Below are positions 22,529 through 54,162 of a DNA stretch of 58,220 bases, one piece after another; position 1 is the first letter of the stretch; each line of letters opens with the position of its first letter. This stretch comes from Bacteroidales bacterium. GTDB lineage: Bacteria; Bacteroidota; Bacteroidia; Bacteroidales; F082. The translations under genes and the position numbers were made by a program. The notes under the pieces were generated by a model. It made no database searches. It had not been told where the DNA came from and saw only the letters and a list, made by a program, of their open reading frames with translations. The stretch covers positions 1-58,220 of the forward strand of contig JAGCPH010000004.1 of assembly GCA_017645275.1 (NCBI GenBank), given 5' to 3'.

Positions 22529-23086
22529 ATGAATATGAATATAGAAGAAAAGATTCGGAAAGAAAGAGAGGCATTTGACGACATGAAGATGCCGGCGGGC
22601 AGCCGCGAGAGGTTTGAGATGTCATTTCGAGCGCAACGAAGTGGAGTCGAGAAATCCTCTTCAGATGACACGAACAAAAAGGATTTCTCCATTTCGCTCC
22701 GCTCCAGTCGAAATGACATTTGGTTGACATTCACCACGATCGCAGCGGCGGCGGTAGCCATTTTATTGGTGATTTTCGGTCTGAACCGATATGGACAAAT
22801 GTGGAAGGAATCGCCGCAAGTGGCTGATAATAAAGTAGTTGAGATGCGTCAATTTTACGATGAGAAGGTAGAGGAAGCCATCATCAACCTGGAGGACGTG
22901 ATGGAGAATGTTGACGATTCAACAAAGATGCAAATCAATGCGGTGATACGCGATCTGATGAACATGGGCGACGTATTCGCCGAGATGGCACCACTGCCTG
23001 AAGACCGCCAGATGGCGTTAACCGAACAGATGTACGACAACAAGTTGAGAACTATAGAATTGATTACAGAACAAATTAACAAGTAA
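22529..23086 (+). CDS. Anti-sigma-like single-pass membrane protein carrying a family A repeat insertion
   Basis: A 185-residue protein (ATG 22529; ATG 22535 is also possible). The N-terminus is a short cytosolic helix (IEEKIRKEREAFDDMKMPAGSRERFE), then residues 31-63 are encoded by a complete family A palindromic element (MSFRAQRSGVEKSS ... LRSSRNDIW), then one membrane helix (about 68-86) and an acidic periplasmic domain of about 95 residues with no recognised fold. Position after the ECF sigma gene suggests it binds and holds the sigma factor. The frame is intact through the repeat, so the insertion appears to be tolerated. Confidence 0.75.
   Translation: MNMNIEEKIRKEREAFDDMKMPAGSRERFEMSFRAQRSGVEKSSSDDTNKKDFSISLRSSRNDIWLTFTTIAAAAVAILLVIFGLNRYGQMWKESPQVADNKVVEMRQFYDEKVEEAIINLEDVMENVDDSTKMQINAVIRDLMNMGDVFAEMAPLPEDRQMALTEQMYDNKLRTIELITEQINK
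22621..22717. repeat. Family A palindromic element, copy 2, inside a gene
   Basis: GTCATTTCGAGCGCAACGAA at the left and CCAGTCGAAATGAC at the right are inverted complements with inner GAGAAATCC and GGATTTCTCC arms, as in the intergenic copies. Here the element is read through in frame as residues 31-63 of the anti-sigma-like protein. Confidence 0.9.
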
Positions 23087-49453: not shown

Positions 49454-50065
49454 ATGAAAAATATTCTACTCTCTTTGGCTTTCGTTTTCTGCGTTTTTTC
49501 GGTGGAGGCGCAGGAGGGATATTTTTCTGTGAAAGGCAAGATTTTGTCGGCCGACAGCTTGCAACCGATTCCTAACGTAAACATTGTCAGCGAGTTATCA
49601 CGTTATGGAACGATAACCAATCAGGAGGGTTTTTTCATTATAAAATCAAAAACGATCGATACCTTGTGGGTGAGCTGCGTGGGCTTTGACACGAGGGAGG
49701 TGCCTGTTTGGAGGGATAGTATTCTTAATAATACATTGATTATCAAGTTAATTAGAAGCAACATCATGCTCGATTCGGTGGAGATATATCCGCTTCCTCC
49801 TTATAAAGATTTCATAAAAGACATCGCGAAAATGCCGATGAAGAAGCCGTTTTTTGTGCCTGGGGTGTCGAGGGCGGATGATGCAAAACGCATTTGGAAG
49901 AGGCCCGATATGGAGTCGCCGCCGTCGGTTATCAATCCTATCTCGTTGATTTACAAGAGATTTAACAAGCAAGAGGTTTTTAAAAGGAAACTACAAAGGA
50001 ATAGAAAGAAATTTAATAAAGAAATGGAGAAGATTGGTGCGGATTCGCTGATGATTCCAGAATAA
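49454..50065 (+). CDS. Exported carboxypeptidase-regulatory-like domain protein
   Basis: The 203-residue protein has a signal peptide (ending VEAQEG), then a CarboxypepD-regulatory-like domain (about 22-105; FSVKGKILSADSLQPIPNVNIVSE and VSCVGFDTREV), and a basic C-terminal part (FKRKLQRNRKKFNKEMEKIG) without barrel sequence. It resembles the free-standing N-terminal domain found in front of Bacteroidota TonB-dependent receptors. Function unknown. Confidence 0.8.
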   Translation: MKNILLSLAFVFCVFSVEAQEGYFSVKGKILSADSLQPIPNVNIVSELSRYGTITNQEGFFIIKSKTIDTLWVSCVGFDTREVPVWRDSILNNTLIIKLIRSNIMLDSVEIYPLPPYKDFIKDIAKMPMKKPFFVPGVSRADDAKRIWKRPDMESPPSVINPISLIYKRFNKQEVFKRKLQRNRKKFNKEMEKIGADSLMIPE

Positions 50066-50069
50066 TATC

Positions 50070-50190
50070 GTCATTTCGAGCGAAACGAAGTGAAGTCGAG
50101 AAATCACCGGCATACAATTATTCCGCATCATTCAATTGCCGGAGATTTCTCCGCTACGTTCCATTTCATTTCACTCCGGTCGAAATGACG
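50070..50190. repeat. Family A palindromic element, copy 6
   Basis: GTCATTTCGAGCGAAACGAA ... CTCCGGTCGAAATGACG with CACCGGCAT and TGCCGGAGATTTCTCC inner arms; it lies between convergent genes. Confidence 0.9.
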
Positions 50191-50193
50191 GGG

Positions 50194-50517
50194 TCAAAAA
50201 ATTCTTTCCATTAGCTGCCACTTCTCATCGCTTCTGGCATCAGCGCTACAGCCTTGAAACTGAGCCACATACGCCTCCCATTCGGCTTGTCGAGGGAGGG
50301 TCGCCAGGCGTGCCATGTCGCGCTCGAAATCGAAGTCGTCGATGGTGTCCATTATCATGAAAAGGCTGCGGCCGTAGCGGTAAATTTGCATGTCGAGGAT
50401 ACCTACAGCGCGTTGACCTTCAATAACTTCCGGCCATACATGAGCGTGGGCCTCGACATATTTCGCTATCATTTTTTCGTCATCGACGAGCTGTAAACAC
50501 TGACAGTATCTTTTCAT
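50194..50517 (-). CDS. L-rhamnose/L-fucose mutarotase family protein
   Basis: The 107-residue protein of the COG3254 (DUF718) family has YCQCLQLVDDEKMIAKYVEAHAHVWPEV, IYRYGRSLFMIMDTIDDFDFE and EWEAYVAQFQG. It should interconvert alpha and beta anomers of a 6-deoxy sugar. Being 15 bases downstream of the fucose permease, L-fucose is the more likely substrate. Confidence 0.85.
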   Translation of the reverse strand: MKRYCQCLQLVDDEKMIAKYVEAHAHVWPEVIEGQRAVGILDMQIYRYGRSLFMIMDTIDDFDFERDMARLATLPRQAEWEAYVAQFQGCSADARSDEKWQLMERIF

Positions 50518-50532
50518 TTTAATGTTTATTGG

Positions 50533-52074
50533 TTATAGGTTATTGGTTATTGAGGATTTAGCGCGGTGGCCATATATAGCAACCACAACAAAACATATCA
50601 GCGGTAGAACATAGCTGACGTTGACGGCGGGATGACCGAGGATGGTGCCGCAGTCGATAATCATGCCTTGGAGAGGTGGCATCAAGGCGCCTCCAACGAT
50701 AGCCATCACCAGGAAAGCCGCACCGAGCGAGGCGTCAGCGAAGCCCTCATTGCGGGCTTGACCCCCCTCATTGCGGGCTTGACCCGCAATCTCTTGAGAT
50801 TCCGGCTCGGAGGCCGGAATGAGGGACTGTGCCGCATCAAGTGCGGAATGAGGAGTCTCAATAAGAGCCCCTAACGCGGTACCGTAAATCGTCGGAAACA
50901 TCAGACTCATAAAGAGGCTTATGCCCACCAGACACCACAGTCCGGCTTTGCCAACAATCACAATGGCTCCCAACGAGCAAATAGCAGCGCAAACTCCAAA
51001 GATGGTGAGCAGCTTGCGACCATCGGTGTATTTCATTAGCCAAGTGGAGAGAAAGCGCCCACAAAGGAAGAGGCACATCGCCGCGATGTTGTAGTTTTGT
51101 GCCGTGGCTTTGTTAATTCCAAGATTATCAGCGTATTGGATAACAAATGTCCACACCATGATTTGAGCGGCAACGTAGAATACTTGGGCTATCACGCCTT
51201 CGCGATACACTCGGTTATGCCAAAGACGCTTGAGAGTGTTCTTGACCCCCTCATTGCGGGTTTGTACCTCCTCATTGCGGGCTTGACCCCCCTCATTGCG
51301 GGCTTGACCCCCCTCATTGCGGGTTTGACCCGCAATCTCCTGAGATTCAGGCTCGGAGGCCGGAATGAGAGACTGTACCGGATCAAGTCCGGCATGAGGA
51401 CCTTTCGTTGGCATTTTGACGACTAGGGCAATAATTACGAGCATCACCATCACCACTAGTCCGAGAGCCACATACGGGTCGCGAATCACAGCCAAATCGT
51501 GTAACCTTATTTCTGCTTTCTCAGTTTCCGAAAGCATCGGGAAGATGATGTTGCCAACCGCATCACGTTTGTCGCTCCATAGGTTTGGCAGTACCACCAT
51601 AGAAGCCACCGCCATTCCTGCCAACGAACCCATCGGATTGAAGGCCTGCGAGAGGTTTAGGCGACGAGTAGCGTTTTCTTTCGCGCCAAGCGACAATATG
51701 AAAGGACTTGCTGTGGTTTCCAAAAAAGCGAGTCCAAATGTGAGGATATACAAGGAAAAACAGAAGAAAGTGAAGCTTTGGCGTGCAGCAGCCGGGATGA
51801 ATAAAAACGCACCAACGGCATACAGCGCCAATCCGAGCAAAATGCCTTTTTTATAGCTGAACTTGCGGATAAAAAGTGCTGCCGGTATCGCCATTGTGGC
51901 ATATCCACCATAAAAGGCGAATTGAATCAGACTCGCTTTGGCCGCAGGCAGCTCCATCAGCGTCTGAAACGCCGCCACCATAGGGTTCGTGATGTCATTC
52001 GCGAAGCCCCAAAGCGCAAAGAGGCTTGTGATCACCACAAAAGGCAAAAGATATTTCTTATTTACTAACTTCAT
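50533..52074 (-). CDS. fucP: L-fucose:H+ symporter-like permease with two family P insertions
   Basis: The 513-residue major-facilitator protein has the FucP-type opening KKYLLPFVVITSLFALWGFANDITNPMVAAF and 12 membrane helices. Two stretches do not belong to the family: residues about 226-276, between helices 6 and 7, and about 408-444, between helices 10 and 11. Both are encoded by family P elements (AQSLIPASEPESQEIAGQ and repeated QARNEGG units). Both loops face the cytoplasm in MFS proteins, and the frame stays open, so the transporter may still work. Family members usually have about 430 residues, so the excess matches the insertions. Confidence 0.88.
   Translation of the reverse strand: MKLVNKKYLLPFVVITSLFALWGFANDITNPMVAAFQTLMELPAAKASLIQFAFYGGYATMAIPAALFIRKFSYKKGILLGLALYAVGAFLFIPAAARQSFTFFCFSLYILTFGLAFLETTASPFILSLGAKENATRRLNLSQAFNPMGSLAGMAVASMVVLPNLWSDKRDAVGNIIFPMLSETEKAEIRLHDLAVIRDPYVALGLVVMVMLVIIALVVKMPTKGPHAGLDPVQSLIPASEPESQEIAGQTRNEGGQARNEGGQARNEEVQTRNEGVKNTLKRLWHNRVYREGVIAQVFYVAAQIMVWTFVIQYADNLGINKATAQNYNIAAMCLFLCGRFLSTWLMKYTDGRKLLTIFGVCAAICSLGAIVIVGKAGLWCLVGISLFMSLMFPTIYGTALGALIETPHSALDAAQSLIPASEPESQEIAGQARNEGGQARNEGFADASLGAAFLVMAIVGGALMPPLQGMIIDCGTILGHPAVNVSYVLPLICFVVVAIYGHRAKSSITNNL
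50744..50853. repeat. Family P element inside fucP (copy 1)
   Basis: Two units of CTCATTGCGGGCTTGACCC at 21-base spacing are followed by the palindromic body (ATTCCGGCTCGGAGGCCGGAAT-type hairpin and GCCGCATCAAGTGCGG) and a closing ATGAGG. It is read on the minus strand as fucP residues 408-444. Confidence 0.92.
51248..51399. repeat. Family P element inside fucP (copy 2)
   Basis: Four units beginning CTCATTGCGGG at 51250, 51271, 51292 and 51313 (all 21 bases apart) precede the palindromic body and the closing GGCATGAGG. It is read as fucP residues 226-276. Confidence 0.92.
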
Positions 52075-52100
52075 TTGGTTTACTGTTTATCGTTTACTAT

Positions 52101-52290
52101 CCTCATTGCGGGCTTGACCCCCTCATTGCGGGCTTGACCCCCTCATTGCGGGCTTGACCCCCTCATTGCGGGCTTGACCCCCCTCATTGCGGGCTTGACC
52201 CCCCTCATTGCGGGCTTGACCCGCAATCTCTTGAGATTCCGGCTCGGAGGCCGGAATGAGGGACTGTGCCGGATCAAGTCCGGCATGAGG
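52101..52290. repeat. Family P element between genes, six tandem units
   Basis: Units beginning CTCATTGCGGGCTTGACC at 52102, 52122, 52142, 52162, 52183 and 52204 (spacings 20, 20, 20, 21, 21), then the palindromic body and GGCATGAGGG. It fills the spacer between fucP and the nucleotidyltransferase-GHMP gene. Confidence 0.93.
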
Positions 52291-52308
52291 GTTTAAGGGT
52301 TACATTTC

Positions 52309-53652
52309 TTATCGTCTGATTGTTAGTTTTAAAGCTTCACTATGTTCCTTTGCAAATTTCTCAGCATCCTCCACCACACACGCGAGATATCCGCCGCCGC
52401 CGGCACCAGGCATTTTCCATGCCAACACTCCAGGCACTGCCGACCATTTGTCTATAAAATCTTGTATACTTTCCACTTTTTCAACTGACTCTAAACTCTC
52501 AACTCTACACTCTAAACTAGGATGTATCATCCCCGGAAACATCGCCACTTGTGCTTCAAATGAGGCTTTATATGCTTTTGCAAAAGCATCCAAATCCATG
52601 TGCATGATGGCGTTCCAGCATTCATCGGCGGCTTTAGCCAAGGCCTTGACCTTTGTCTCGGTGATGTCTTTGCCCTCAACGACGCTGCAGCCTGGTTTGC
52701 GAGGCTCCATCGGGATCATAACCAGATGATTTTCAAGCCATTGCAAAATATCCTCGTCATGGCAGCTCTCAAATTTCAGAGGCCAATACCTTTTATCATA
52801 ATAATGGCGCACCAGTCCAGGCATGCAGATACCTATCGCGTCCTGCGCCCCGCTGATGATGCCATCCGAGCGTTCGGGATCGTTTTCGAAGCAAAACATA
52901 AGCTTTGCCAAGAATTCAGGATCCATATTCGGCAGCTTGACTGGCCAAATCTTCTTTATCATGTTACGGGTCGAGGTCGAGAGTCCGCAACGTTCACGGA
53001 TCTCGAAAGTAGGCTCAAGCGAGATAGTTATCGCCCATCCTGGTGCATATTGGCTCACGTAAGGCTGGTCGATCCATGTCCCGGCAAGGTCCAGACGTGT
53101 CGGGATGCGGCAGAGCTGGTTTTTCAAGTCTGTCGAGCTGCGGGCCGGTAACGCAGTACCCTCATTGCGGGCTTGACCCCCCTCATTGCGGGCTTGACCC
53201 GCAATCTCCTGAGATTCCGGCTCGGAGGCCGGAATGAGGGACTGTGCCGCATCAAGTGCGGGATGAGGTGCGGCATGAGGCACCACGTGGGGGGTGCGTT
53301 CCAGCACCACGTATTCGATGCCGCGTTCCTTACAAAACTGGCGTTTTTCCTCCTTATCGCCGTCCTCGTTGACCACCAAGATATCCGGTTTCAGCATGTC
53401 GACTGTCGGGATGAAATCCATGATGCCGCTACCTTTATTAATAAAGGCGTCCTTCACATAGCGTATCGCCTTGACCATGAAGAGGCGCTCGTTTTCATCA
53501 TAAAGCGTGCGGTGGCCTTTGTAATGCAAGATGGTGTCGTCGGAGCCGATTCCAACGTACAGGTCGCCATACTGCGCAGCCTGACGGAAGAACTCGACGT
53601 GACCACTATGGAGCAGGTCGTAACAACCCGAAACAAATACTTTCTTGCTCAT
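52309..53652 (-). CDS. Nucleotidyltransferase-GHMP kinase fusion protein with two repeat insertions
   Basis: A 447-residue two-domain protein. Residues 1-122 form a cytidylyltransferase-like domain with GCYDLLHSGHVEFF (HxGH). Residues about 170-447 form a GHMP kinase domain: RIPTRLDLAGTWID, a substituted GLSTST loop, and GAGGGGYLACVV. The linker (about 125-165) is encoded by a family P element and residues about 378-396 (SLECRVESLESVEKVES) by a family B repeat. The order and context with fucP, mutarotase and GDP-fucose genes suggest phosphorylation and nucleotide activation of L-fucose or a related sugar, but unlike Fkp the transferase is of the HxGH type. Substrate is inference. Confidence 0.72.
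   Translation of the reverse strand: MSKKVFVSGCYDLLHSGHVEFFRQAAQYGDLYVGIGSDDTILHYKGHRTLYDENERLFMVKAIRYVKDAFINKGSGIMDFIPTVDMLKPDILVVNEDGDKEEKRQFCKERGIEYVVLERTPHVVPHAAPHPALDAAQSLIPASEPESQEIAGQARNEGGQARNEGTALPARSSTDLKNQLCRIPTRLDLAGTWIDQPYVSQYAPGWAITISLEPTFEIRERCGLSTSTRNMIKKIWPVKLPNMDPEFLAKLMFCFENDPERSDGIISGAQDAIGICMPGLVRHYYDKRYWPLKFESCHDEDILQWLENHLVMIPMEPRKPGCSVVEGKDITETKVKALAKAADECWNAIMHMDLDAFAKAYKASFEAQVAMFPGMIHPSLECRVESLESVEKVESIQDFIDKWSAVPGVLAWKMPGAGGGGYLACVVEDAEKFAKEHSEALKLTIRR
52466..52519. repeat. Family B repeat inside a gene
   Basis: TACTTTCCACTTTTTCAACT followed by GACTCTAAACTCTCAACTCT matches the intergenic family B tracts closely and is read in frame as residues 378-396 of the GHMP kinase domain. 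Confidence 0.88.
53159..53280. repeat. Family P element inside the nucleotidyltransferase-GHMP gene
   Basis: Two units starting at 53161 and 53182 (21 bases apart), then the palindromic body and GGCATGAGG. It encodes the linker between the two enzyme domains (residues about 125-165). Confidence 0.92.
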
Positions 53653-53677
53653 TATCTCACTGATATTATTTTTTATT

Positions 53678-53741
53678 CACACAGAAAACACGGAAATCAC
53701 AGAAATTTGCTCACCTAAGGTGAGCTGCTACCGCACGCTGG
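53678..53741. repeat. Family F left arm of the GxxExxY gene
   Basis: CACACAGAAAACACGGAAAT and a hairpin GCTCACCTAAGGTGAGC (53709-53725), followed by CACGCTGGG. It is the inverted counterpart of the arm at 54180-54242. Confidence 0.75.
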
Positions 53742-53790
53742 GGGTTCTTCACAATATCCTTTCCGCTCTACCTGTGCATTGCGTGTGACA

Positions 53791-54162
53791 TTAATTTGCT
53801 ATACGTTTCATTGCGGTAAGAATATTGTCAGTGTTAAAATTTACCAGTATTCCCAACCTCTTGTCCATGAGTTTTAAATAAGTCAGAAGCTGCTTGGCAA
53901 ATACTGGTTTCATATCTTCTACAGACTTCAATTCTACAATTACCTTACCCTCCACTAGCACATCAAGCCTCAAGGCTGTCTTGAGTTCGTTGCCTTTATA
54001 TCGGATAGGAACCTCAAGTTGGCGTTCCACCTTCAGGCCTCGTTGTTTAAGTTCATAGCATAATGCCTCCTCGTAGACCGATTCCAACAGCCCGGGACCG
54101 AGTTCTTTATACACATCGTATATAGCTCCTCTAACTTCGTATGTTATCTCATTATCTGTCAT
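53791..54162 (-). CDS. GxxExxY protein (predicted PD-(D/E)XK nuclease-like)
   Basis: The 123-residue protein has the naming motif in GPGLLESVYEEAL (about 23-35) and the nuclease-like residues RLDVLVEGKVIVELKSV (about 76-92: Asp, then Glu-x-Lys). The family (TIGR04256, PDDEXK_3) occurs in scattered copies in many Bacteroidota genomes and has no proven function. It lies between inverted family F arms in the middle of the fucose gene region, with which it has no evident metabolic link. Confidence 0.9.
   Translation of the reverse strand: MTDNEITYEVRGAIYDVYKELGPGLLESVYEEALCYELKQRGLKVERQLEVPIRYKGNELKTALRLDVLVEGKVIVELKSVEDMKPVFAKQLLTYLKLMDKRLGILVNFNTDNILTAMKRIAN

Follow-up and report, generated by a model that had tools for sequence, protein, structure and literature searches.

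Within 2.5 kb of contig JAGCPH010000004.1, from a draft assembly (GCA_017645275.1; 54 contigs, 2.0 Mb, 82% complete) of a Bacteroidales bacterium, a palindromic element is present in four full copies. Three of them lie in frame within two neighboring genes, fucP and a nucleotidyltransferase–GHMP gene (nt-GHMP), and the fourth lies between these genes. The 58,220-nt stretch of this contig that we analyzed is referred to below as the window. We consider it likely that the element is a non-autonomous repetitive extragenic palindrome (REP) element of the CCTC/CGTC type, which was extended by slippage and has been retained in frame in protein loops, and that a small GIY-YIG nuclease may be what moves it. 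In-frame insertion of REPs is known already; what is new is a lead to a candidate enzyme, which makes the open question of the mobility of CGTC-type REPs testable.

Structure of the Element and Its Copies

The repeated unit of the element (CCTCATTGCGGGCTTGACCC) has 14 matches in the window at up to three mismatches, whereas 0.00 were expected from 100 shuffles. Two copies lie in fucP on the reverse strand. The one in the loop between transmembrane segments 10 and 11 (TM10–TM11; 50745..50853) has two units 21 nt apart (starting at 50745 and 50766), with the REP1 hairpin at 50766–50793, an inverted REP2 at 50796–50824, and REP3 at 50825–50853. That in the TM6–TM7 loop (51249..51399) has four units spaced by 21 nt (51249, 51270, 51291, and 51312), REP1, a REP2 with an imperfect stem, and REP3. 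The third coding copy (53160..53280, reverse strand) lies in nt-GHMP, in the linker that joins its nucleotidyltransferase part to its GHMP-kinase-like part, and contains two units at 21 nt (53160 and 53181), all three REPs, and a short extra partial unit. The intergenic copy (52101..52290, forward strand) has six units (52101, 52121, 52141, 52161, 52182, and 52203) spaced by 20, 20, 20, 21, and 21 nt; the last unit is REP1, after which come REP2 and REP3.

An original prediction for this DNA had described three in-frame coding copies and one intergenic copy, which is borne out by our unit scan and by the open reading frames (ORFs). Its coding sites are right, with starts placed one base too low (50744, 51248, and 53159). 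Recounting gave the same spacings (21 nt in all five coding gaps, 20 nt in three of the five intergenic ones), and the peptides IPASEPESQEIAGQ and QARNEGG were found in both ORFs, as it had proposed.

Each window copy is a composite of REP hairpins and tandem partial units rather than a single block. REP1 reads CCTC-ATTGCGGG-CTTGA-CCCGCAAT-CTC. REP2 (CCTC-ATTCCGGC-CTCCGA-GCCGGAAT-CTC) is placed after REP1 and inverted relative to it, the tags of the arrangement being directed outward, and REP3 is a third, imperfect hairpin after REP2. To the left of REP1 are one to five partial units without the second half of the stem, whose run of five or six C gives the 20- or 21-nt spacing. A perfect 8-bp stem is present in REP1 of all four copies and in REP2 of three, with loops of 5 nt (CTTGA, TTTGA) and 6 nt (CTCCGA), respectively; REP3 was picked up by the hairpin scan in none of the copies, and varies between them by two-sided stem changes (GGA/TCC and GCA/TGC). 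Five folds gave z-scores of -3.3 to -6.0 relative to shuffles. An element copy would consist of inverted REP hairpins with outward tags, lengthened by slippage of the 20/21-nt partial unit.

Beyond the window, the genome has one more match, on contig C26 (G000:C26), in frame within a UDP-GlcNAc 4,6-dehydratase gene; coding sites are four of the five places that carry the element, and no full copy was found in the assembly besides those of the window. Under random placement, the clustering of the copies has a probability of about 8e-9, an approximation that takes no account of assembly limits. The four near-identical window copies appear to have been derived from one another locally. If the nuclease described below moves the element, they may be relics of a partner that was lost or not assembled, or else slippage and template switching at this locus may account for their most recent spread; the latter is favored by the clustering of the copies.

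Insertion into Host Genes

The fucP gene (50533..52074, reverse strand) encodes an L-fucose:H+ symporter of 513 amino acids, and nt-GHMP (52309..53652, reverse strand) a protein of 447 amino acids. The frame is intact across both inserts in the former and across the insert in the latter. Both gene names had been assigned in the original prediction and are upheld by a TIGR00885 match (500 bits) for FucP and a CTP_transf_like domain in the nt-GHMP protein, whose C-terminal match to bifunctional fucokinase models is weak.

That the element was inserted into these genes, as previously claimed, is supported by orthologues from the genus, since a full REP insert at the window sites was found in 0/29 FucP and 0/29 nt-GHMP sequences. 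In the FucP set, one protein (L105) is truncated ahead of the second site, and another (L109) carries an in-frame unit-like REP remnant (15/19 bases, at about position 2159 of its locus) in the TM6–TM7 loop, and thus an earlier REP may have been present at this loop. An origin of the insert by gene fusion across a former intergenic spacer was rejected, as the orthologues are already fused without the insert.

Alignment with Escherichia coli FucP (3o7q) placed the two inserts at chain residues 232–248 and 372–378, which we take to be the TM6–TM7 and TM10–TM11 loops of the major facilitator superfamily topology. The nt-GHMP insert sits in the interdomain linker connecting the nucleotidyltransferase and kinase-like parts, and the dehydratase copy on C26 occupies a 15-residue gap relative to 4j2o. 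Judging from these sequences, the inserts are insertions in flexible loops or an interdomain linker of apparently working genes. A gene for a GxxExxY/PDDEXK_3 nuclease-like protein (53791..54162, reverse strand) adjoins the REP-bearing genes; no link between it and the element was demonstrated.

Relationship to Known Palindromic Elements

No description of the window element had been known to the original prediction; that its kind is undescribed is not supported. According to Di Nocera, De Gregorio and Rocco 2013 (PMC3733652), members of the CGTC-tagged REP superfamily carry the tag CGTC, TGTC, or CCTC, an 8–9-bp stem starting with AT, a loop of 4–5 nt, and a three-base tail that is mostly CCA; they form dimers, occur in Bacteroidetes among other phyla, and include the Rickettsia palindromic elements RPE-4 (CGTC-4) and RPE-6 (CGTC-1). 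In-gene clusters of such REPs coding for 43–82 residues are also described there. The window hairpins share with this superfamily the tag (as the CCTC variant), the perfect 8-bp stem with AT first, a short loop (5 nt in REP1, 6 nt in REP2), the dimers, and the in-gene copies. The window element is a variant of the described CGTC/CCTC REP superfamily, whose in-frame copies have been reported before. Among 118 hairpins from relatives, obtained by a scan that itself demanded a [CG][CTG]TC head and an AT stem start, the tag was CCTC in 81, CGTC in 34, and GGTC in 3, and the loop was CTTGA in 71.

The likeness to Rickettsia palindromic elements, also suggested previously, is sustained: in-frame insertion into otherwise intact genes is common to RPE-4/RPE-6 and the window element as far as their descriptions go; the organism here belongs to another phylum. 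The window element differs from the published superfamily in the tandem partial-unit arrays in genes, the 6-nt loop of REP2, the CTC tail, and the linked GIY-YIG nuclease described below, a term absent from the main text of PMC3733652.

REPIN/RAYT systems (REP doublets forming hairpins and REP-associated tyrosine transposases) and bacterial interspersed mosaic elements (BIME) also have two inverted REPs as their non-autonomous unit, and an enzyme gene with REPs at its flanks is a further shared feature. That gene codes for a Y1 tyrosine transposase in REPIN/RAYT systems and, by association only, for a GIY-YIG nuclease here.

Association of REPs with a Small GIY-YIG Nuclease

The link between GIY-YIG genes and REPs was tested because two arrays from other genomes adjoined a small GIY-YIG nuclease gene. 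The loci used were best-scoring ones rather than a random sample: 70 from the genus (30 plus 40 chosen from a list), 30 further loci, and 16 of 33 named plasmid-collection records, which represent 15 distinct genes after a duplicate (L277) was dropped and which include two orthologous Shinella loci (L282 and L289). Stems of 9 bp were allowed in the final count, earlier scans having used 8-bp stems only or an over-strict motif.

In the genus, a REP was found within 350 nt of 16 of the 17 genes of subtype A (..GIVYILTNKNNTTLYTGVT..), on both sides in 11 of them, compared with 1/48 among the other GIY-YIG rows (Fisher 4e-13, for subtypes that were defined by motif and named once the link had been noticed). 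Subtypes B, C, D, and E account for 0/46, and the sole flanked row outside subtype A (L207) belongs to it after all, as the cut end of the L274 gene. REP density near subtype A was 3.35 per kb within 350 nt versus 0.19 per kb beyond 900 nt.

Among the named records, 11 of the 15 distinct genes are flanked (nine on both sides; 3.33 vs. 0.11 per kb), a count that is partly post hoc in that the stem rule was widened after REPs had appeared in two Rhizobiaceae flanks. With this change, and with one more record included, the count for the named records rose from 3 to 11 of 15; those for the genus and the phylum stayed nearly the same. All 11 flanked records are proteobacterial (Alpha-, Beta-, and Gammaproteobacteria), from Sinorhizobium, Rhizobium, Neorhizobium, Shinella, Azospirillum, Aeromonas, Photobacterium, and Neisseria, and the REPs near proteobacterial GIY-YIG genes mostly end with CCA. 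The GIY-YIG genes in the Planktothrix, Spirosoma, Novosphingobium, and Sphingobium records had no REP flank. Examples of REP-flanked genes across Bacteroidota and three Proteobacteria classes are found in L187, L208, L240, L274, and L284.

No hairpin (0) was found in shuffled loci. In control loci, a REP hairpin was present in 1/29 for FucP and 7/29 for nt-GHMP, the latter comprising four perfect in-gene REPs, one imperfect one, and two that look like chance matches. Twenty further loci outside the final count contained 15 ORFs, five of them with REPs, and two of those five are fragments.

The arrangement of the flanking REPs is also regular. The stem arm is identical on the left and right in 16 of the 22 two-sided loci (3.24 expected with partners shuffled), and the outermost REP points outward on the left in 17 and on the right in 20 of the 22. 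Four subtype-A ORFs (L187, L188, L190, and L211) end within the downstream REP (..GDCGSSPQ), implying that the REP supplies the stop codon. The protein matches the GIY-YIG domain (PF01541) at 1.6e-16, its invariant positions including Y8, Y19, G21, R28, and E66; the REP flanks and the ORFs ending inside a REP set subtype A apart from other small GIY-YIG nucleases of PF01541. In Azospirillum lipoferum, the GIY-YIG gene and its REPs lie between sufB and sufC in a spacer of ~0.6 kb, compared with 91, 87, and 129 nt in three congeners that do not have the gene, the flanks being too diverged for an exact boundary.

These observations suggest that the REP-flanked small GIY-YIG nuclease moves or copies REPs, and this nuclease is the probable partner enzyme for CGTC-type REPs. 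We lean slightly toward a two-part mobile system, in which a GIY-YIG gene between outward-tagged REPs would be the complete element and solitary REP dimers, including those in fucP and nt-GHMP, its non-autonomous offspring. By analogy, the dimers would derive from the GIY-YIG element as REPINs are thought to derive from RAYTs. If true, REPs would have, next to the RAYT tyrosine transposases, a second and independent type of enzyme for their spread, occurring in two phyla or more, and the GIY-YIG/REP system would be a source of in-frame palindromes in proteins. The nuclease is also a concrete candidate for a class that, in the main text of Di Nocera 2013 (PMC3733652), is said to be seemingly without a dedicated transposase. 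In our literature search, GIY-YIG and 'extragenic palindrom' co-occurred in a single paper, where the two are unrelated. In one relative, a REP-flanked GIY-YIG gene (L275; G004:C88) is located beside the fucP/nt-GHMP locus.

In-Gene REPs and Selection in Related Genomes

Within the genus, interior in-gene REPs were observed in DegT genes (L025–L027 and L041, at two sites) and in hemW (L054, L056, and L066, at one site), and L039 has two further in-gene REPs in short ORFs. Most REPs of the genus are outside long ORFs (59 loci, L025–L083, some overlapping, sampled by best match or pattern), and in-gene REPs are a minority in the genus as sampled. The hemW REP is enclosed by inverted arms; its orientation is reversed in L066 relative to the other two genomes, and the frame is open both ways. 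The suggestion that the element can be read in either direction agrees with this and with the different reading orientations of the C26 copy and of hemW copies from other genomes.

Outside the inserts, fucP and nt-GHMP of the window have low nonsynonymous divergence (dN) and high or saturated synonymous divergence (dS), a pattern that dates mostly from before the insertion. Relatives sharing an inserted REP are more informative; in such pairs, dN/dS outside the insert was 0.086/0.614, 0.084/0.691, and 0.042/0.485 for DegT (L025–L027) and 0.069/0.679, 0.100/0.583, and 0.092/0.890 for HemW (L054, L056, and L066), or ~0.09–0.17 across these pairs. At a second site in nt-GHMP, a REP has a perfect stem in L128, L130, L131, and L134, one mismatch in L133, and is decayed in L127; pairs with a REP at this site gave dN/dS of ~0.03–0.13. 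We infer that the REP insertion is common to these relatives by descent.

Unit Spacing and Reading Frame

With a 21-nt spacing, two of three frames are open on each strand, and with a 20-nt spacing a stop occurs in every array of at least three units. The spacing pattern is therefore partly intrinsic to the sequence. Stop-free frames number four of six for the 21-nt unit and three of six for the remainder of the element, and in-frame copies would have persisted because of these open frames and because the peptide is tolerated. On this basis, in-frame landings in flexible protein loops would persist, whereas frame-breaking copies and length changes would be lost from genes and kept between genes.

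It had been argued from the window that frame-breaking lengths are removed in genes. None is present in the coding copies, but the contrast in the window (21 nt in 5/5 vs. 2/5 gaps) is not significant alone (one-sided Fisher, about 0.08), and the spacings are not independent given that the copies are related. Five coding arrays are now available, all with spacings divisible by three: the three in the window (21 nt, five times), C26 (18 nt), and L154 (2232–2268), in which two REP units with a 21-nt spacing lie in a reverse-transcriptase gene of a Bacteroidales metagenome-assembled genome (MAG; JAISIO010000041.1). None of the 18 non-coding arrays (that of the window and 17 elsewhere) has spacings divisible by three throughout; the 17 have spacings of 19, 20, 22, 23, and 24 nt and one of 28 nt. 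L085 (G059), in which a single unit passed the cut, was excluded. The five coding arrays point the same way as the frame argument, which is weak in the window alone. Unit arrays were detected in 3/173 genomes of the family and 1/393 of the order, and the 12 array stretches from other genomes are mostly labelled Bacteroidales.

Evaluation of Alternative Explanations

Several observations weigh against a non-autonomous REP element served by a GIY-YIG nuclease. The REP2 loop of the window has 6 nt and the tails are CTC, compared with 4–5 nt and CCA in the published superfamily. Subtype A was not found in the 82%-complete genome itself among the matches listed, and the one GIY-YIG gene seen in this genome (C24) belongs to subtype D and has no REPs, although its match to the subtype-A profile is at 1.5e-34. 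Of the GIY-YIG genes sampled across Bacteroidota, only 12/32 are flanked (seven on both sides; 1.45 vs. 0.05 per kb), and matching left and right stems could be explained in part if each genome had a REP family of its own. There is also some circularity in the frame comparison, as coding status was called in part from the open frame itself. A few related termite-gut MAGs contributed many of the non-coding arrays, and the non-coding arrays were examined for flanking ORFs only; inclusion of a degenerate stretch of two units in L160 (749/773, spacing 24), which was left uncounted, would change the non-coding count to 1/19. As regards misassembly, the inserts are known from draft-assembly contigs alone.

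It is possible, if rather unlikely, that no dedicated enzyme is involved, and that REPs spread by slippage and template switching at hairpins with GIY-YIG genes being merely frequent neighbors. The growth by 20/21 nt is ordinary slippage, and the clustered copies with their partial-unit arrays, the hemW REP of L066 flipped in place, and the failure to see subtype A in the genome itself would all be consistent with such a process. However, it leaves unexplained why, within the same genus, REPs accompany a single GIY-YIG subtype but not the remaining ones, and why they also occur at its relatives in Alpha-, Beta-, and Gammaproteobacteria.

The inserts could also be retained because they serve the cell, for example through an mRNA hairpin by which ribosomes are slowed between domains or through a useful linker peptide. 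Their location in loops or at a domain boundary fits this idea, as does the presence of different repeats at the same FucP loop and nt-GHMP site in different species. In the FucP TM6–TM7 loop, L098 has three copies of a perfect 20-nt palindrome (GGACACGATTAATCGTGTCC), L103 and L104 have CTCTAAACTC-type repeats, L105 and L108 have CCAACAGCC-type repeats, and L095, L097, and L102 have CACGAAT-type repeats. In nt-GHMP of the window, a second, unrelated repeat of the CTCTAAACTCTCAACTCTA type (52480..52525, forward strand; CTCTAAACTC match at 52489) is in frame at a site where several relatives have a REP. On the other hand, what other species have at the sites of the inserts is unrelated repeats or nothing, and the FucP and nt-GHMP loops seem to tolerate any arriving repeat. 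We therefore regard selection for a function as improbable. The in-gene copies also illustrate how bacterial proteins may gain ready-made linkers, one FucP loop having different repeats in different species.

Movement of these REPs by a RAYT, as thought for GTAG REPs, would draw on the Y1_Tnp genes present in 42 of 60 genus genomes. However, no Y1_Tnp gene was found in the genome itself, and this REP was present at 0/12 examined Y1_Tnp loci of the genus. Several Y1 genes of the genus (L166–L177) are flanked by other palindromes, for example CCCCGTAGGGG, as seen by eye, so that two REP–enzyme systems may coexist in the genus. For the CGTC superfamily, too, the main text of Di Nocera 2013 (PMC3733652) reports no RAYT flanked by CGTC units. 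A RAYT is thus improbable as the mover. Finally, misplacement of repeats by the assembler, conceivable in a draft of 54 contigs in which four similar copies lie near one another, is very improbable, because the copies differ from one another, all three coding copies keep the frame, a different contig has the fifth copy, likewise within a gene, and in-gene REPs occur at shared sites in other species.

Other Repeats in the Window

An Rfam scan of 50000–54000 gave one sub-threshold match and nothing above the gathering score, and viral contigs had 0 exact matches to the 28-nt REP. Repeats of the CTCTAAACTC type were found in the window at 1231, 1263, 26845, 34575, 34677, 36549, 49322, 49370, 52489, and 57797; nine of the ten are between ORFs, and one (52489) is in frame in nt-GHMP. 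Another palindromic family (TCATTTCGAGCG..TCGAGAAATC) is present at 22622, 29402, and 50071.

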